Origin: Candidatus Gastranaerophilales bacterium
GTDB taxonomy: Bacteria; Cyanobacteriota; Vampirovibrionia; Gastranaerophilales; Gastranaerophilaceae
Length of the DNA: 64,000 nt
Reading direction: 5' to 3'
Assembly (NCBI GenBank): GCA_944323115.1
Contig: CALURG010000044.1
Span: 1 to 64,000, forward strand
Part shown: positions 4,658 to 51,513 of the stretch, one piece after another
Layout of the letters: each line of letters opens with the position of its first letter
How positions within the stretch are numbered: position 1 is the stretch's first letter
Position numbers and translations under genes: made by a program
Notes under the pieces: generated by a model
Database searches by the model: none
Told to the model about the DNA's origin: nothing
The model's input: only the letters and a program-made list of their open reading frames with translations

Positions 4658-4708
4658 TATAGCATGAACTTAAGTGTCTATATTTTGATTTATGTTAACA
4701 ATTGTTAA
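4656..4708 (-). promoter_or_regulatory. dnaG promoter with upstream TTAACAATTGTTAA palindrome
   Basis: On the minus strand TATAAT lies at 4661-4656. A perfect 14-bp palindrome, TTAACAATTGTTAA, lies at 4708-4695. The distance between their first bases is 47 nt, matching other sites in the window (46-47). The intermediate (A/G)GCAAT box is not evident here. The palindrome is shared with the divergent gene at 4818. Confidence 0.45.
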
Positions 4709-4774
4709 GCGAGTATTTTTTGTCAGGCAATTTTCAGAAACAAAATGTTTTTATATAAGAGTAAGGTTAGATTT
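4695..4774 (+). promoter_or_regulatory. Shared-class promoter (TTAACAAT / GGCAAT / TATA) of the gene at 4818
   Basis: The elements are palindrome 4695-4708, GGCAAT 4726-4731, TATATAAG 4752-4759, and the tail TAAGGTTAGATT from 4762. GCAA to TATA is 25 nt. The tail recurs in front of the gene at 38241, at identical distances from GGCAAT (36 nt) and from TGTTTTTATA. Confidence 0.6.
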
Positions 4775-4817
4775 TAAAAACATATCCTGGCAGCAGGATG
4801 AAATTTGGAGGTTGGTT

Positions 4818-5684
4818 ATGTACGGAATTAGCGGATACATGGGTTATCCAAATCAGTTTCAAGTAACGGCGAATCCCGTCGGAGCAGGTCTGGCTGAGTT
4901 GAATAAATCATTTGCAAAAGATTTTGGGTTAAATATTCCACCTGTTTATGACCTTCCTTTGAATGTAAATATGGGCTTTGGCGGAGGAATGTACGGCGGT
5001 ATGTACGGAATGGGTATGATGAATCCGTATATGATGTCTTCTCAGTATTTAAAATATTTAAATATGGATTACAAAGACAGATTGGCTTATGACCTCGAAT
5101 TGAGAAACCTTGCAAGAGAAAATATGTACAATGAAGGCAAAATTGCTAAAAATTATGCAAGTGCGACAGACGGTTTGACAGGTTCAATTGCTGAAGCTTG
5201 TTCAGCTTTGCAATCAGTAATCATAGAAGGTCAGACAGATCAGATAGTTGCACAGTTTGACAACATTGTTGATATGATAAGACGTTCTCCTTTGTATGAA
5301 AGACTTAAAGAAGAATTCAAAAATGATCCTGTAGCTCTTGAAAAGACTTTGAGAAATTGTGCAAGAGAACAATTCCAGGCAGCAACAGGCCAAGATCTCA
5401 GAGCAATGATTCAGCAAAACTGTGACAGTTCTATCGCAAACGGATTCTGGAATACAATTTCATTCGGCAATTCACAAACATACTCGGCAGAAGAAGTTAT
5501 TGCAAGAATAGAAGGTGTTGAACCTTCCAAATCAACTAAAACCAAGAAATTGGTCGGTAATCTCGGCGGAATAACAGCAGCAGCCGGAACAGGTGCAGTA
5601 ATTGGTCTTATTGGCGGACCTGTAGGTGCCGGTGTTGGTGCAGCGGTGGGTGCAATTGTCGGAATAATCGGTTCAATTTGCTAG
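4818..5684 (+). CDS. Lineage-specific Met/Gly/Tyr-rich protein with C-terminal glycine zipper
   Basis: The start is the ATG at 4818 behind GGAGG (4807-4811, spacing 6). An upstream in-frame extension to 4692 would read through the promoter and is rejected. The product has 288 residues. An N-terminal low-complexity block (about residues 52-72) consists of Met, Gly and Tyr. A helical middle follows, then a C-terminal run of GxxxG-type glycine zippers (about 250-288) that could insert in a membrane. There is no signal peptide. I do not recognise a family. It resembles the protein at 38241 in composition and has the same promoter tail, so the two are probably co-regulated. Confidence 0.75.
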   Translation: MYGISGYMGYPNQFQVTANPVGAGLAELNKSFAKDFGLNIPPVYDLPLNVNMGFGGGMYGGMYGMGMMNPYMMSSQYLKYLNMDYKDRLAYDLELRNLARENMYNEGKIAKNYASATDGLTGSIAEACSALQSVIIEGQTDQIVAQFDNIVDMIRRSPLYERLKEEFKNDPVALEKTLRNCAREQFQAATGQDLRAMIQQNCDSSIANGFWNTISFGNSQTYSAEEVIARIEGVEPSKSTKTKKLVGNLGGITAAAGTGAVIGLIGGPVGAGVGAAVGAIVGIIGSIC

Positions 5685-12957: not shown

Positions 12958-13869
12958 TTATTGCACGTATGCTGTGAGTAGATTGTTTATTTGTTCGAAT
13001 TCTCTTATTTTGCGAAGAGCTCTATTCTCTGTTTGTCTAATGCATTCTTTTGTCACTCCGTAAATTTTTCCGATATCTTCAAGTGTTTTTCTTGTCCAAT
13101 TATTGAGACCGTATCTCATTTTTATTACGGCTTGTTCACGTTCCTTGAGTGTTGATACGACGTATTCTATATCTTTTTTAAGGTCTTCGTATTCTGCGTT
13201 TGCATAGGCGGATGCTTTTGGATCTTCAAGAATGTCAGACAGTGTAACTTCGCTTCCGGAATTAAGTTCAAACTGTGCGTCCAAAGACAACGATTTTGTG
13301 AAAGCGGCCAAAAAAGTGTCTATTTTTTCGGGAGCTATATTCATTTTTTCGGCTACTACTTCATTTTTTACCTGCGTGTTGTATTTTTGTTCAAGCTGAG
13401 CTTTGACTTTCGAAAATTTTGACAAAGTTTCTTGAATGTACACGGGAATTTTTACACAGTGTGATTGTTCTGAAATTGCTTTAAAAATTGCTTGTTTTAT
13501 CCACCAAGCTGCATATGTGGAAAATCTGTATCCGAGTTTGTAATCAAATTTTTCTACTGCGACCATAAGCCCCAGATTTCCTTCTTGTATAAGGTCAATC
13601 ATTGGCAGATTCGAAACTTGAATAGTTTTTTTTGCAATGTTTACAACAAGCTTTAAGTTTGATTGTACAAGTTTTTGTTTTGCTTTTAAAGAATTGCCGT
13701 TGTTGTGTTCGGCCGCAATTTGTGCAAGTTCTTTTTCTTCTTGTGCACTCAGTGTTTCGTATTTTGAGATTTTTCTTATGTAACTGTTCAAAATATCATC
13801 ATTTTCTTGAGGTATTACACAGTTTTTTGACGGCTTTGTTAAATTTACTTTTGAATTCGGCTTTGACAT
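12958..13869 (-). CDS. Group 2 sigma-70 factor
   Basis: The 303-residue product has regions 2 (RFSTYAAWWIKQAIFKAISEQ), 3 and 4 (VTKECIRQTENRALRKIREFE) but a reduced N-terminus. It differs from RpoD in many promoter-contact positions, for example KECIRQTENR instead of [10 protein letters not shown], so its specificity may differ. AGGAG at 13881-13877 sits 7 nt from the ATG at 13869 but only 1 nt from an upstream ATG at 13875, which decides the start. Cyanobacteria and relatives typically carry several such factors. It is a candidate reader of the non-standard promoter class in this window. Confidence 0.9.
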   Translation of the reverse strand: MSKPNSKVNLTKPSKNCVIPQENDDILNSYIRKISKYETLSAQEEKELAQIAAEHNNGNSLKAKQKLVQSNLKLVVNIAKKTIQVSNLPMIDLIQEGNLGLMVAVEKFDYKLGYRFSTYAAWWIKQAIFKAISEQSHCVKIPVYIQETLSKFSKVKAQLEQKYNTQVKNEVVAEKMNIAPEKIDTFLAAFTKSLSLDAQFELNSGSEVTLSDILEDPKASAYANAEYEDLKKDIEYVVSTLKEREQAVIKMRYGLNNWTRKTLEDIGKIYGVTKECIRQTENRALRKIREFEQINNLLTAYVQ

Positions 13870-13889
13870 ACACATACTCCTAATTTATT

Positions 13890-14004: not shown

Positions 14005-14034
14005 GTATATACTTAATATATCATCAAGTATATC
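14005..14034. repeat. Inverted repeat between sigma factor and tadA
   Basis: ATATACTT (14007-14014) and AAGTATAT (14026-14033) form an inverted repeat around an 11-nt centre, preceded by ACTTTG. It lies in the divergent intergenic region and could be an operator. A related ACTTTGTATATA string occurs near 33468. Confidence 0.35.
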
Positions 14035-14115
14035 AAATTTCAAGTCTTTTGTTACGAAATATTACAAAATCCCTGTTTTTTTTTATTATTTTGTAATATT
14101 TTGTAATATATTTAT

Positions 14116-23936: not shown

Positions 23937-24434
23937 TTATGCAGGTAGTATTCCCGCTTCATTTAATATTGCAGCTATTCTTTTATTTGAGTCAATTGCT
24001 GCATAAAGGCTTTCTTTGTCAGGGATATGACTCAATGCTTTTTTGACGTTTGGTGTTGCTGCTGCGTCGTATTGAGATATTCCGTATTTGATATTTTTAT
24101 AATAATTCGACAAAGTTGACATGAAACCCGGTTTTGTGTTTGCCGTGTCAGCAATAGTTTCAGCCTGTGCCTTTTCATCAGTAACTATATTTGTACCGAA
24201 TAAAGGTGTTGATACCTTTGCTTCAATTGGCACTTGAACATTACCGGTATTTTGAATATTTCCGAATAATGATGAATTTGTCTTTTCCGGTGTTGTTTTG
24301 GGCGGATACAAAAATCCTGAGCCTAAAGAAAAGACCTCTATTTTCCTATTATCAACAGTAGTTTCTGGTGTTTTGCCTTTAGTAATATCACCGGCTGCCT
24401 GCTGAACTGTTATTTTTTCAACATTATGTGCCAA
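23937..24434 (-). CDS. Lineage-specific protein of unknown function, TTG start
   Basis: The 165-residue soluble, Thr/Asn/Pro-rich N-terminal part is followed by a helical C-terminus (YKNIKYGISQYDAAATPNVKKALSHIP). I recognise no family. The start is a TTG at 24434 with AAAGGA about ten bases upstream; no ATG fits. It has its own promoter of the window's shared class (24472-24523), so it may be controlled separately from the kinase operon upstream. Confidence 0.6.
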   Translation of the reverse strand: MAHNVEKITVQQAAGDITKGKTPETTVDNRKIEVFSLGSGFLYPPKTTPEKTNSSLFGNIQNTGNVQVPIEAKVSTPLFGTNIVTDEKAQAETIADTANTKPGFMSTLSNYYKNIKYGISQYDAAATPNVKKALSHIPDKESLYAAIDSNKRIAAILNEAGILPA

Positions 24435-24471: not shown

Positions 24472-24523
24472 CTTATAAAAAAATTTTTTTCCGCTAAATT
24501 TACAGGTTTTAGGAAATTGTTAA
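24472..24523 (-). promoter_or_regulatory. Shared-class promoter of the gene at 23937
   Basis: TTAACAATT starts at 24523 and TATAAG at 24477, 46 nt apart as at 38241 and 45527. The middle box reads GTAAAT instead of (A/G)GCAAT, at the same 20-nt offset. The flank TTTTTTTATAAGTATATAGG resembles that of the gene at 38241. Confidence 0.5.
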
Positions 24524-33494: not shown

Positions 33495-33554
33495 TTAACA
33501 ATTTTTAATTAAAAAAGCAATTTTGATATTGAAATTTACTTTATAGAAATATAG
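33495..33554 (+). promoter_or_regulatory. Shared-class promoter of the gene at 33575
   Basis: TTAACAATTTTT starts at 33495, AGCAAT is at 33516-33521 and TATAG at 33542. Spacings are 21 and about 25, 47 in total. ACTTTGTATATA repeats lie just upstream. Confidence 0.6.
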
Positions 33555-33574: not shown

Positions 33575-33778
33575 ATGAAAGAACATGAATTGAATACCAT
33601 AATGGATGTAGTTGCAGATCCAATTAAAAATGTATATGACGTATCAAACAGAAAAAATTTGCAAGAAATCCAGAGAATTATAAGAATTTTTCAAATTAAT
33701 GAAGAACAAAATCTTAAAAACAAATTGTTTGCAATAAAAAGTCTTGCAACATTAAAACTGGTTTTGAGCAATAATTAA
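33575..33778 (+). CDS. Small 67-residue protein under the shared promoter class
   Basis: The soluble, mostly helical product (VYDVSNRKNLQEIQRIIRIFQI) matches no family I know. It has a GAGGA ribosome-binding site and a clear promoter of the window's shared class, which argues for a real gene despite its size. Confidence 0.6.
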   Translation: MKEHELNTIMDVVADPIKNVYDVSNRKNLQEIQRIIRIFQINEEQNLKNKLFAIKSLATLKLVLSNN

Positions 33779-33787
33779 TTTTTAAGG

Positions 33788-36466
33788 TTAATCTTCATCG
33801 TCGAAATTGTCTTCGTCGTCTTCGTCAAGATATTCTGTTATAACAGCTATATTGGTTTCAATTTTTTTCAATTGTTTTTCCATATTAGCTATACGTTGAT
33901 TCAGTTTTTCGTTTTCAATAATTTTTTCATTTGTGACACTGACTTGAGAAGCTATATATTCAACAAGTGATTTAAGTTCTTTTGTATCGTTTTTCTGAGC
34001 TATTATTTTATCAAGTTTTGACTCTAATGCTTCAATTCTGCCTGATACATTTTCATTTTCTGCATTCATTGTATCTTTGATATTTGATACATCGTCTTTA
34101 ATGTCTTCAAATGATTCACTGGCTGAGTCAATCCACTCTCCCAAATACATAAATGCTTCGTTCAGAACATTTTCAGATTGAACAAGTGATGATGTAGTTT
34201 GAGAGATATTATCAATTTTTATATCAAGGTTGTTTACAAATGCTGAATTGTAAAATTCTTTACTCTGTCTTTCAAAAGTTGAAATCAGCGAAGAAAATAC
34301 CTCTATATTTGATTTTAATGTTTTATTTATTTCATCAGAAGTTAAAATTAATTTGTTTGTCCTTTTGCTTATGCTTGAGACATCTTCATTTAATGCACTG
34401 AAAAGTGATTTAACTTCCGAAATTTCTTCATTTATCGGGTTGCTTTCTAATTTTTGCAGAGATTTTTTGATATTAGCTAATTTAGTGTTAATATCAGAAC
34501 CTGCTTCTGCACTTTCAGCATCACTATTTGAAATAACTTTTTGTAGATTTGTCAAATCCAGTCTGATTTTTGTCAAATCTGACTCAATATCAGGCAATGT
34601 ATAGACATAATCTTTATCTGCTTTGAGTCCGCTTGTTAACAGCTTAAATCCTGAAATCAATGTTTTCAAATCTTGATTTAAATCTGTCTGAACGGCATTT
34701 TCAATTTTTTCAAGAAGGTTAATTATGCTTTCGTCTGCATCAACAGAGAAATCTTTTAACTGCAATATTTCTTGTTTTATATCTGAAATATTAGATGTGA
34801 TTTTTTCTTTGAGTTCTTCCGAGCAACTGTAAATGCTATCGCTTATTTCTTCAGCTTCTTCTTCAAAGTTGATATTGTCAGCTATCTGAATAAGTTGTGA
34901 TACAAATTTGGTTTGCAGGTTATTCAGTGCCGTATTAATTTGTTCATTTTGTTCGTTTAGTATTATTTCAGCCAAATCTTTTCGGAGATCTTCTATTGTT
35001 GAAGAAATTTCACTTATTTGATTTGACGCTGCAACACTTTCAGCAGAAATTGTATCTGTGATATCTTCTGTAACTTGCTTTTGGGCATCACTTATTTTTT
35101 CAGTAATATTTTTTTCAAATTCTTTTTGTATTTCGTTTATATTTGAAGAAATATTTTCTGCTATAAGTTTGTTTGTTGTATCAAGTTTTTCAACAACATT
35201 ACTTTCAAGTTCTTTTTGTATTTCATTTATATTTGAAGAAATGATTTCAGAAATTTGTTTTTGTGTATCAACAAGCTTGTCAGAAAAATTTTGGGTAATT
35301 TTATCTTGGGATTCATCAAGCTTTTGGAAAATGCCTTCTTCAAGCTGTTTTTGAGTATCTGTTAGTTTTTCAGTGAAAGTTTCTGTTGATACTGCATTTT
35401 TTTGCACATCAGTGATTGTGTCTTTAATAGACCATATTTCATCTTTGAGAACTTCTGTTCCTTGAAAGAACATTTTTTCAGTGTATTCTTTGATATCTTG
35501 TATATCGCTGAAATCAATTTTTTCAAAGATTTTTTGTTCAAGTTCGTTTAAAAGCTCCTGGTTGTGCTTTTTAATTTCTTCTTTATTTTTAGATGAATTT
35601 TCAATAAGCTCTTCTTTTGTTGCAAGATTTTTTAATGTTTCTGACAGAAATGCCGTTTTTGTTAGTATATCTGCAACATCAGAACGCAATATTTTGAATT
35701 CATCGTCATCAAAAATATTTCCTATTACCTGTACTAGTGTAGTTAAATTGTTGTTTAGTATTTCAATATATGAATCAGTTTCATGTATTTTTGAAATGAT
35801 TTCATCAACTTTGTCGCTTAAAAATGTTTTTTCAGCCTGCTGTTCTTCAGTAAGAAAATCTTTAAACTCTTTTATACTAAGAACAATAGTGTTTAGTTCA
35901 TCAAGAGTTTTTTTGTTGCTTTGCTGTAAATAGTCATTGAGTTCTGCCAACAAATTTAGTTGTTTGTTTATATTTTCGTTAACAATTGTGTTTTGTTCTT
36001 TAACTATTGCAAAATTTGAAACCAATATATCATTAGTTTCTTCAAGTGTTCCAAATTTTTCTATATGAGAAATTATTGAATTAAAAGCTTCTTTTTGATT
36101 TTCTTGTTCTTCTGAGAAAAAGTGAATTTGGTTTTGTATTTTATTAAATGCTGCAAGAAATTCCGGAGTTTTTAAAGAATTTAGCAGAATTTCATTTATA
36201 TTATCAAACTCGCCTTTGATAGCACTAAATTTTCCGTCAACAATGCTTTGTCTGTCTTGAATCATGTTTCTTATTTCAAGAGCAATAAGACCTACTTTTT
36301 CAAGATTCTCATTATCTGAAAAGACATCCATTTTTGTATTTATCTTTTCAAGTATTTGTGCATATGTAATGCGGAAATTCTCATCGGAATTTTCTTTTTG
36401 TATTATTTTATCGACAAGTGCATCAATTTTGTTTTGTATTATTTCTATGTTATTTATTTCTGACAT
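33788..36466 (-). CDS. 892-residue coiled-coil protein
   Basis: The protein is almost entirely heptad-patterned helix, rich in Glu, Asn, Lys, Ile and Ser, with no signal peptide or transmembrane segment and an acidic tail (YLDEDDEDNFDDED). Around residues 375-475 it has 30-residue repeats (SSNINEIQKE units). The matching DNA repeats are 90 bases apart. It resembles cytoskeletal or scaffold coiled coils in general and has no nameable family. The ribosome-binding site is weak (GAGAG). Confidence 0.75.
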   Translation of the reverse strand: MSEINNIEIIQNKIDALVDKIIQKENSDENFRITYAQILEKINTKMDVFSDNENLEKVGLIALEIRNMIQDRQSIVDGKFSAIKGEFDNINEILLNSLKTPEFLAAFNKIQNQIHFFSEEQENQKEAFNSIISHIEKFGTLEETNDILVSNFAIVKEQNTIVNENINKQLNLLAELNDYLQQSNKKTLDELNTIVLSIKEFKDFLTEEQQAEKTFLSDKVDEIISKIHETDSYIEILNNNLTTLVQVIGNIFDDDEFKILRSDVADILTKTAFLSETLKNLATKEELIENSSKNKEEIKKHNQELLNELEQKIFEKIDFSDIQDIKEYTEKMFFQGTEVLKDEIWSIKDTITDVQKNAVSTETFTEKLTDTQKQLEEGIFQKLDESQDKITQNFSDKLVDTQKQISEIISSNINEIQKELESNVVEKLDTTNKLIAENISSNINEIQKEFEKNITEKISDAQKQVTEDITDTISAESVAASNQISEISSTIEDLRKDLAEIILNEQNEQINTALNNLQTKFVSQLIQIADNINFEEEAEEISDSIYSCSEELKEKITSNISDIKQEILQLKDFSVDADESIINLLEKIENAVQTDLNQDLKTLISGFKLLTSGLKADKDYVYTLPDIESDLTKIRLDLTNLQKVISNSDAESAEAGSDINTKLANIKKSLQKLESNPINEEISEVKSLFSALNEDVSSISKRTNKLILTSDEINKTLKSNIEVFSSLISTFERQSKEFYNSAFVNNLDIKIDNISQTTSSLVQSENVLNEAFMYLGEWIDSASESFEDIKDDVSNIKDTMNAENENVSGRIEALESKLDKIIAQKNDTKELKSLVEYIASQVSVTNEKIIENEKLNQRIANMEKQLKKIETNIAVITEYLDEDDEDNFDDED
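35115..35242 (-). repeat. 90-bp-spaced tandem repeat inside the coiled-coil gene
   Basis: The 38-bp segments 35115-35152 and 35205-35242 differ at only two positions and are exactly 90 bases apart, encoding adjacent SSNINEIQKE repeats. Recent duplication or ongoing homogenisation is likely. Confidence 0.75.
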
Positions 36467-36583
36467 TGAAAACTACTCTCTACTTAAAAAGCTCCAGTAT
36501 TATTGTATCAAATACATAATTACATGTATAAATATGTAACTTTATGTTACGGTTGTATATGTTTGATTTTAAAACAAATCTAT

Positions 36584-37972: not shown

Positions 37973-38144
37973 TTATTTCTCCTCTAATTGAAACTTTATA
38001 TATAAAGTTTATACTCCATGTCTATTTTACTTGCTGACATTTAAATTAATAGTAGTCTTTGATAAATGTTAAGGATAATTTATTATTTATAACTGTTATC
38101 ATTGATTTTTTAATGTGTTTTCCAACTTTTAGTTTTAATATTTC

Positions 38145-38212
38145 TTAACAATTTTTTTTAAAAAGGCAATCCTAAAAAACAGATTGTTTTTATAAATATG
38201 TAAGGTTAGATT
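38145..38212 (+). promoter_or_regulatory. Shared-class promoter of the gene at 38241
   Basis: TTAACAATT starts at 38145, GGCAAT is at 38165-38170, TATAAATA at 38191-38198 and the tail TAAGGTTAGATT at 38201-38212. Offsets are 20, 25 and 46. The tail is identical to that of the gene at 4818. Confidence 0.65.
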
Positions 38213-38240: not shown

Positions 38241-39206
38241 ATGTATTTTGATGATTACAGCACAAGTTTTCAAAGTTTGTACAGTCCTATGTATAACTTA
38301 CAGACAAATTATTCTGCCACTATGAATCCATATTCAGGAGGCATGGGTTATAGAATGGGTATGGGCATGTATCCTGGTATGATGGGTTTATTCAACCCTA
38401 TGACCGGTATCGGTGTCGGTCAGTTTGGTGCTGATTACTTAATCAAAAATGATGGAAATCAAAACAATTATTATACAAGACCAATCCCAGCATATAAAGC
38501 AAAAGATGAAGTTCCTACAATTTTGGGTATATTAGGAACCGCACTTGGTACAGCTGCAATGCTGCTGGCATTGAGAAAAGGTAAAAAGGCTCCGAAGATA
38601 AAAGGTAATGCTACGCCGGTATCTCCTACACCTGTTGCCCCTACACCGGTTGGTCCTTCTGCTCCAAGACCGGCTGTAACCCCGTCTAACGGCGGTGCAG
38701 CAACAGTAAATACAAAGCCTATATTAAATAATAACAGGTTGTTGCCTGCACATATAAATACCCCTGTTTCAACAACAGCACCTAATACTGTTGCAACACA
38801 GCCATCTGTATCTACTGCGGCAGGAAAACCGGCAACACTGCCGCCACATATACCGGCTCCGCAGATAATGTTAACAGCTCAAAATCCATTGTATTCTCTG
38901 CCTGCTCCGGTAGTTAGTACTACATCAGGAATGCTAAAGTCCGGCCCTCTTCCGGCAACACCTTTGCCGGCAGCTAATACAGCTGGACAAGTAGAAGGGT
39001 TACTTAATCCTAACATTCCTTCATCTGTGTTGTATCCCAAAAAGCCGCTTGTTGATGCGTCTAAAATAAAACCTCGTGAGCAACACTTGCTGCCTCAAAA
39101 TGCCGGCCCGTCCGTAAATACATTTACTCCGACAGGTTCAAAATATGAGTCCAGTCCGAGATGGCAGGCTGCTTTGGCAAGGCTCAGACAGTACGAAAAC
39201 ATGTAA
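38241..39206 (+). CDS. Lineage-specific Met/Gly/Pro-rich membrane protein
   Basis: The product has 321 residues. An N-terminal Tyr/Met/Gly-rich block (NPYSGGMGYRMGMGMYPGMM, about 31-50) is followed by a transmembrane helix near 91-108 (LGILGTALGTAAMLLAL), RKGKK, and a long Pro/Thr/Ala-rich tail. Composition and promoter tail match the gene at 4818; the helix-then-RK layout matches the small protein at 45285. No family recognised. A surface or scaffold role is a guess. A GGAG lies upstream of the ATG. Confidence 0.75.
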   Translation: MYFDDYSTSFQSLYSPMYNLQTNYSATMNPYSGGMGYRMGMGMYPGMMGLFNPMTGIGVGQFGADYLIKNDGNQNNYYTRPIPAYKAKDEVPTILGILGTALGTAAMLLALRKGKKAPKIKGNATPVSPTPVAPTPVGPSAPRPAVTPSNGGAATVNTKPILNNNRLLPAHINTPVSTTAPNTVATQPSVSTAAGKPATLPPHIPAPQIMLTAQNPLYSLPAPVVSTTSGMLKSGPLPATPLPAANTAGQVEGLLNPNIPSSVLYPKKPLVDASKIKPREQHLLPQNAGPSVNTFTPTGSKYESSPRWQAALARLRQYENM

Positions 39207-45284: not shown

Positions 45285-45527
45285 TTACTTTCTGAATTTT
45301 AAAGCGGCTACACCGATAAGCGACATAAACGAAACAAGTGCACCTATTACGGGTAACGTGTAATTAGGTTTTTCTTCAGAAATAAGATATCCGTACGTTT
45401 TTGAGATATTTGGCCTTTGCGTGTCGTAGCAATAACTTGCAATGTCTTTTGTAACTTGTGTTGCTCCGGTTGCATTTGCAGGATATCCCTGATACGGAAT
45501 GTAAGACGAAGAAATATTGTTCATCAT
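45285..45527 (-). CDS. Small tail-anchored protein under the shared promoter class
   Basis: The 80-residue product has a polar Tyr/Asn/Pro-rich N-terminus (YIPYQGYPANATGATQ) and one C-terminal transmembrane helix (about 56-76) ending in KFRK. The layout is like the middle of the protein at 38241. Two ATGs stand in tandem and the ribosome-binding site is weak. Its promoter is the cleanest example of the shared class. Confidence 0.65.
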   Translation of the reverse strand: MMNNISSSYIPYQGYPANATGATQVTKDIASYCYDTQRPNISKTYGYLISEEKPNYTLPVIGALVSFMSLIGVAALKFRK

Positions 45528-45554: not shown

Positions 45555-45608
45555 CTTATATAAAAACAATTTATGTATTGATATTGCTTAGATTTTGGTG
45601 ATTGTTAA
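45555..45608 (-). promoter_or_regulatory. Shared-class promoter of the gene at 45285
   Basis: On the minus strand TTAACAAT starts at 45608, AGCAAT at 45588 and TATATAAG at 45562. Offsets are 20, 25 (GCAA to TATA) and 46, identical to 38241. TTGTTTTTATATAAG matches the gene at 4818. Confidence 0.65.
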
Positions 45609-45631
45609 CGCTTCTTAATATCTGTAATTTT

Positions 45632-47604: not shown

Positions 47605-47676
47605 GAACAATTGTTAACATAATTTAAAATATAAAAAGTATGTAGCAAAAAAATTTGTGTTTAGTTTTAATATAAT
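47605..47676 (+). promoter_or_regulatory. Shared-class promoter of the gene at 47736
   Basis: AACAATTGTT (47606-47615) followed by AACA, AGCAAA (47644-47649), TATAAT (47671-47676). Palindrome centre to TATA is about 60.5 nt, two helical turns more than at 38241. GCAA to TATA is 26. Confidence 0.45.
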
Positions 47677-50808: not shown

Positions 50809-51513
50809 TTATTTGCCTTTGGGCAAAAGTCTGTATCCCCCGCCGTAGATTGTTTCTATATATTCTTTATTGTTTGAAACTTTTTTGATTTTAGTCCTGA
50901 GGTGTCTTATGTGGACTCGGATTGTTTCAACATCATCTCCCGGTGAATATCCCCAAATATCATGCAGCATTTTTGATGACGGTACCATGCAGTCATGATT
51001 TTGAACAAGCAGATTAAGTATATCAAATTCAATAGGGGTTAATTTTGCTGTTTGCCCGTTTATGCTTACCGAATACGTTTCAGGAATCAGAGTAATATCT
51101 CCGATTGTCAATATTTCCTTTGTTGCCAAAGATTCCGGAATTGAGTGTGCTCTTTTTAATAATGCACGTACTCTGACTTTTAGTTCCTCCATTTCAAAAG
51201 GTTTTACCAGGTAATCATCAACCCCTATATCAAAGCCTTTCACCTTGTCTTCAAGCTGTCCCATTGCTGTGAGCATAAGTATCGGTATGTCTTTTGTCTC
51301 AGGATTTTCTCTTACTCTTTTTGCAACTGTGTAGCCGTCAACATCGGGCATCATGATATCCAATATTATTAGATCAGGAAGCTCTTGTTTTGCGAGTGTA
51401 TAGCCTTGCAAACCGTCATATGCTGTTATTACTTCATATCCAAGAAGTTCGAGATTGATTTTTATCAGCTCATTTATTGCATTGTCATCATCTACTACAA
51501 GAATCCTGTTCAT
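50809..51513 (-). CDS. OmpR/PhoB-family response regulator
   Basis: The 234-residue product has a receiver (ILVVDDDNA, phospho-acceptor in LIILDIMMPDVDG, Lys in YLVKPF) and a C-terminal winged helix (LTPIEFDILNLL, DDVETIRVHIRHLRTKI). It resembles cyanobacterial RpaA/RpaB-type regulators in general. No kinase adjoins it. CGGAG precedes the ATG. Confidence 0.95.
   Translation of the reverse strand: MNRILVVDDDNAINELIKINLELLGYEVITAYDGLQGYTLAKQELPDLIILDIMMPDVDGYTVAKRVRENPETKDIPILMLTAMGQLEDKVKGFDIGVDDYLVKPFEMEELKVRVRALLKRAHSIPESLATKEILTIGDITLIPETYSVSINGQTAKLTPIEFDILNLLVQNHDCMVPSSKMLHDIWGYSPGDDVETIRVHIRHLRTKIKKVSNNKEYIETIYGGGYRLLPKGK

Follow-up and report, generated by a model that had tools for sequence, protein, structure and literature searches.

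The order Gastranaerophilales appears to possess a second major class of promoter. It is built on a two-block core, with a -35-like block (GGCAATTTT/GCAATT) and a -10-like block (TTTATA) separated by 17 nt, and commonly carries a 10-bp tandem repeat upstream. The window, the whole 64,000-nt stretch of DNA analyzed here, lies on contig C44 of a 1.88 Mb genome with 34% G+C. DnaG (89% identity) places its nearest named relatives among the Candidatus Gastranaerophilales metagenome genomes, which are Melainabacteria of the gut, the sister group of photosynthetic cyanobacteria. We consider the following joint reading somewhat probable. RNA polymerase would read the core by means of an alternative sigma factor, for which the best candidate is the one encoded at 12958-13875 on the minus strand (sigma-12958). 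Two subunits of RpaB (G000:C85:9940-10629) would occupy the tandem repeat, about -67 to -51 from the predicted start, and activate transcription. RpaB would probably also control the sigma-12958 gene, whose ordinary promoter has the same repeat beside its -35 element, giving a feed-forward circuit. A second regulator probably binds the palindrome GTATATAC, which occurs in the sigma-12958 promoter and in some of the core promoters. The wider proposition, that the order developed a sigma/promoter system of its own, with changed -35 and -10 elements, and placed it under RpaB, the cyanobacterial light/redox regulator, is held more tentatively.

Motif counts were taken from 1.2 Mb of sampled stretches of two congeners, together with genome-wide pattern searches, and the weight matrix for the core was trained on the genome of the window (G000) and a congener (G008). 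GCAATT-N17-TTTATA has 27 matches in the 1.2 Mb and one in the reversed sequence; a spacer of 16 nt gives no match and one of 18 nt a single match. Weight-matrix scores above 20 are reached by 45 sites (about 37 per Mb) and by none in the reversed sequence. It is this density, with the restriction to one spacing, that leads us to treat the core as a single rigid element. Its consensus is roughly AGGCAATTTT-N~9-A-N5-TTTATATAWAYR. There are two -10 subtypes, TGTTTTTATA and WTACTTTATA, and individual genes retain their subtype from one species to another. The exact matches are intergenic in 23 of 27 cases, so that the element is not as frequent in shuffled or coding sequence as upstream of genes. 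Together with the upstream half-site, the pattern TTAACA-N10..30-GCAA-N19..23-TATA occurs five times in the window, compared with 0.18 ± 0.43 times in 100 dinucleotide shuffles; the three-part pattern of the original prediction is indeed non-random.

The original prediction had also given the promoters a spacer of 19-20 nt, too long for an ordinary sigma-70 promoter. This does not stand. The distance from GCAATT to TTTATA is exactly 17 nt, and the spacer seemed longer because the -10 element had been begun two bases late, at TATA. The sequence alone does not fix the register, as TTTATA gives an ordinary 17 bp spacer and TATATA one of 19, but the strongest conservation falls on TTTATA. TATATA follows the -35 block only at N19, and no TANNNT is found at the normal spacing. 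A canonical group 1 sigma-70 promoter would have TTGACA and, 16-18 bp downstream, TATAAT; here the blocks are GGCAATTTT and TTTATA at N17. What is found instead is a rigid two-block consensus upstream of genes, as in an alternative-sigma promoter class, and we infer that the core elements act as promoters.

All 146 genomes searched from the order, which represent 40 genera and 7 families, contain RGCAATT-N17-TTTATA, at 5 to 71 copies per genome compared with 0-6 for the reversed-pattern control. Elsewhere in the phylum it does not rise above the control level in 107 genomes, three of which belong to the same class. The three-part pattern is found in all 21 members of the genus, mostly well above the reversed-pattern control (44 compared with 11 in G007). 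Both G035, from a distant family, and G108, whose genus has few sites, keep the core and some of the repeats.

The upstream box is a 10-bp direct repeat, TTAAYA-N4-TTAAYA, in which the first T is sometimes G. It starts between -35 and -29 relative to GCAATT in 28 of 40 cores (3.0 in shuffled sequence), mostly at -34 to -30, and in a few cases one helical turn further up, at -43/-44. Over the 1.2 Mb, a period of 10 gives 34 repeats, and periods of 8, 9, 11 and 12 give 3, 15, 7 and 21. Cores lie downstream of repeats of period 10 only (9 vs 0). The wider KTWAYA repeat is intergenic in 84 of 122 cases against a baseline of 16% (p=6e-38). The box had been described as helically phased, with its positions spaced in steps of one turn. 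The geometry was confirmed, but phasing is not the main explanation, since what had been measured was mostly the two half-sites of one repeat at a fixed place. The two main spacings arose because either the first or the second half-site had been taken (the repeats start at 38135, 45618 on the minus strand and 4695, with offsets of -31 and -32 at 38135 and 4695); a minority of repeats do sit one further turn upstream. The box would mostly represent one dimer site and not several activator positions. A palindromic operator was considered and rejected: TTAACAATTGTTAA at 4695 looks palindromic, but the boxes elsewhere are direct repeats, and cores associate with period-10 direct repeats only. Two core promoters of G008 without an RpaB-type repeat (L086, about 380-420; L089, about 430-470) have a block CTAATAGGATAGGATAGATGARGCTGGATTAT directly 5' of them.

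All eight strings listed in the original prediction are present in the window at the coordinates stated there, and five of the eight sites form one class with the core, at 4727, 38166 and 33517 on the plus strand and 45587 and 24502 on the minus strand. The sites at 47614 (core score -8.6, TATAAT-type -10), 62093 (-3.2) and dnaG (4708, -12.9, TATAAT-type -10) do not belong to it. The highest score, 31.2 at 4727, is that of GGCAATTTT...TTTATA at 4726-4755 (+), whose gene probably starts at the ATG at 4818 (ORF 4692-5684). The repeat upstream, TTAACA-ATTG-TTAAGC at 4695-4710 (+), matches in 11 of 12 positions with an offset of -32 and overlaps a perfect opposite-strand repeat, TTAACA-ATTG-TTAACA at 4693-4708 (-, 12/12), which faces dnaG. 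One repeat/palindrome at 4693-4710 is thus common to the divergent dnaG (TATAAT-type) and 4818 (core) promoters and could coordinate both. The footprint of this dnaG-divergent promoter was sought in 77 named genomes and is not conserved beyond some congeners.

At 38135-38150 (+) the repeat TTAATA-TTTC-TTAACA (12/12) lies at -31 from the GCAATC of the core GGCAATCC...TTTATA (38165-38194, +; score 27.8 at 38166). The gene downstream (38241-39206, +) encodes 321 aa without a Pfam match and is confined to the genus among the 40 relatives searched. Upstream of it, 20 aligned congeners conserve TAAYATTTCTTAAYA, RGKCAAT, GATTGTTTTTATAAA and GTAAGGTTAG in that order, with variable sequence between them. 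A further block, CTATTTTACTTGCTGACATTTAAATTAATAG, at about 38010-38060 between the divergent genes upstream of 38241, is kept in several congeners. The core AGCAATTTT...ACTTTATA at 33516-33545 (+; 27.7 at 33517) precedes a 67-aa protein that starts at 33575; it has a half-site TTAACA at 33495-33500 (+), at -22, which is kept in the listed congeners' copies of the promoter, and the other half is degenerate. On the minus strand, the repeat TTAAGA-AGCG-TTAACA at 45603-45618 (12/12, offset -31) stands upstream of AGCAATAT...TTTATA at 45559-45588 (25.6 at 45587), the core promoter of the gene 45285-45527 (80 aa). The weakest core, GTAAATTT...TTTATA at 24474-24503 (-; 16.2 at 24502), lies upstream of the gene 23937-24434 and has a 10/12 repeat.

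From two genomes we read about 37 target proteins, most of them lineage-specific. The original prediction of a dedicated, non-standard promoter class with an activator-type box upstream of mostly lineage-specific genes is borne out in this respect. Among 20 scanned targets we found a CpaE-like ATPase, LysM, M15 peptidase, CHAP and ribbon-helix-helix domains; most have none. Pfam and NCBIfam names were uninformative for most targets and for the other sigma factors. A GI[STN] motif within the first nine residues, which may be a shared export signal, occurs in 6 of 37 targets compared with 8 of 1152 ORFs. An N-terminus of the form M..(N)GI[STN], without Pfam domains, is seen in the window protein at 4818 and at L085+8891, L074-7491 and L060+13223 (G000 and G008). 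The 1.2 Mb contain 34 GTATATAC palindromes; 12 belong to core promoters (L077 and L020, for example), where they mostly stand at -15/-16 and +14/+15, and three to sigma-12958 promoters. The palindrome is a probable operator of a second regulator.

Three sigma factors have the phyletic range of the core: sigma-12958, L048 and its paralog L051 (G000:C81:10459). Sigma-12958 is group-2-like and order-specific by sequence comparison. It is 57-76% identical in most of the order and 49-50% in genus g31, with hits only at paralog level outside the order. Its regions 2.4, 3.0 and 4.2 are unlike sigma-A at several positions known as DNA contacts in E. coli sigma-70. The gene has a CTTGAA/TATACT-type promoter and no core promoter of its own. 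Just upstream of that promoter is the repeat GTAATA-TTTC-GTAACA (14050-14065, -; 12/12), and GTATATAC lies within the promoter, at 14005-14012. Among 21 species compared, 17 (10 genera) have a repeat adjoining the TTG-type -35, which matches 12/12 in all but one case (11/12); of 899 control genes, 52 have a 12/12 repeat within 200 nt. We favor sigma-12958 as the reader because its promoter shares these two elements, repeat and GTATATAC, with the core promoters. The link to this sigma factor suggested in the original prediction is therefore plausible. Across the order, motif number does not correlate with sigma-12958 conservation (rho 0.08). The genera with the fewest cores, g31 and g32, have the most diverged copies, which is only suggestive. 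One genome, G119, has 20 core matches and no sigma-12958 ortholog was found in it, possibly because of an assembly gap.

The core could instead be read by L048 or L051, perhaps one for each -10 subtype, which we regard as unlikely but well short of negligible. The phyletic range of both would suit, L048 keeps 64-94% identity from genus to genus, and the conserved subtype of a given gene would fit two readers. In G000 a core-like promoter with N16 (24.0) stands upstream of L051; G114 has one that scores 14.7, and those of G108 and G035 are weaker. Autoregulation of L051 was rejected, as the score exceeds 12 in only 2 of 21 genomes and is strong in G000 only. L048 (G000:C79:102400) is FliA-like and is encoded in an flhB operon, next to an flhB-like gene recognized by its conserved NPTH motif; it looks like a flagellar/type III sigma factor, and FliA-type promoters differ in appearance from the core. 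Motif number correlates negatively with L048 conservation, and the combination of repeat and GTATATAC seen at sigma-12958 is not seen at the L048 and L051 genes. The same C79 locus (L129, 102400-103062) and its orthologs L130-L148 form an order-specific FliA-like family of about 221 aa, 64-94% identical, located directly after the flhB-like gene in most genera looked at.

In cyanobacteria, RpaB binds HLR1, KTTACAWW-N2-KTTACAWW, and activates from -66 to -45 (PMC13421787). Homologs of RpaA, RpaB and NblS in non-photosynthetic Melainabacteria were reported in 2013, and some other, unknown function was proposed for them (PMC3787301). The RpaB of G000 scores 368.7 bits with the NCBIfam RpaB model (cutoff 330), and 138 of 146 genomes of the order have a protein above the cutoff. 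Like HLR1, the repeat has a 10-bp period, the only period that is enriched and linked to the core. Its half-sites are TTAAYA and not KTTACAWW, about one base different per half-site, chiefly the third, which is mostly A instead of T. Because of this mismatch we suggest that the repeat works like HLR1 and do not claim strict membership. Its predicted position, counted from the inferred start, is about -67 to -51. Three exact HLR1 sites were found in the 1.2 Mb sampled, each of them between genes. One of these, TTTACATAAGTTTACAAA, is upstream of ftsH at L012:1492, and ftsH2/3 are RpaB targets in cyanobacteria. In the window, an HLR1-like site GTAACATAAAGTTACATA at 36533-36550 (-) lies upstream of the gene 33788-36466, with no core promoter there; the G008 ortholog has an exact HLR1.

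The genome encodes three OmpR-type regulators, and the repeat might be bound by one of the other two (the G000:C65 protein or that at window 50809-51513). The altered position in each half-site would agree with this. We think it rather improbable, as the C85 protein alone of the three exceeds the cutoff of the RpaB model and the exact HLR1 sites are only intergenic, one of them adjoining ftsH.

Less probable still is that housekeeping sigma-A reads the core and that RpaB-type activation compensates for its atypical sequence. Canonical TTGACA-N17-TATAAT is barely enriched in the sampled sequence, so sigma-A may be tolerant, and the repeat also stands beside the sigma-A-type promoters of dnaG, sigma-12958 and ftsH. 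However, activator-dependent sigma-A promoters are usually less rigid and poorer in information than this core, which has no normally spaced TANNNT and does not occur in sister lineages, although these have sigma-A too. Chance similarity in AT-rich DNA (34% G+C) is effectively refuted by the near-zero reversed-pattern and reversed-sequence controls (146 genomes), the strict N17 and the 20-species footprint.

Our literature search on Gastranaerophilales promoters or sigma factors found nothing relevant, and this would be a kind of promoter not described before, whose upstream site resembles a cyanobacterial light/redox control site. If the reading with sigma-12958 and RpaB is correct, the role of RpaB in these non-photosynthetic relatives would be to run, through a feed-forward loop, a regulon of lineage-specific proteins that may be exported or lie at the surface. 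RpaB would gain concrete candidate target sites and gene lists, testable with purified proteins and without culture. With so precise a motif, the members of a regulon of order-specific proteins can be sought throughout this common gut lineage. It would also give a bounded case of promoter-specificity change, one that extends through the whole order, with the motif at background elsewhere in the phylum, including the three genomes that belong to the same class.

The core shares two blocks and a 17-bp spacer with the sigma-70-family promoters (TTGACA-N17-TATAAT), but both of its blocks differ. Tandem repeats with a spacing of about one helical turn, 5' of the -35, also characterize the PhoB and PmrA boxes in the OmpR/PhoB family; here the half-site sequence is different. 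The likeness to the cyanobacterial RpaB/HLR1 regulon lies in the near-identical half-sites of a 10-bp tandem repeat, a predicted position close to the activating distance, the presence of RpaB, and ftsH and a group-2 sigma gene among the likely targets. Unlike that regulon, this one has mostly TTAAYA half-sites, no photosynthesis genes and lineage-specific targets, and is coupled to a core absent from the cyanobacteria sampled. The sigma-12958 promoter also has a parallel in cyanobacteria, where the group-2 sigma gene rpoD3/sigD likewise carries an RpaB-type site. There, HLR1 lies close to the start and its effect is repression; at sigma-12958, the repeat is just upstream of the -35 element, a position that suggests activation.
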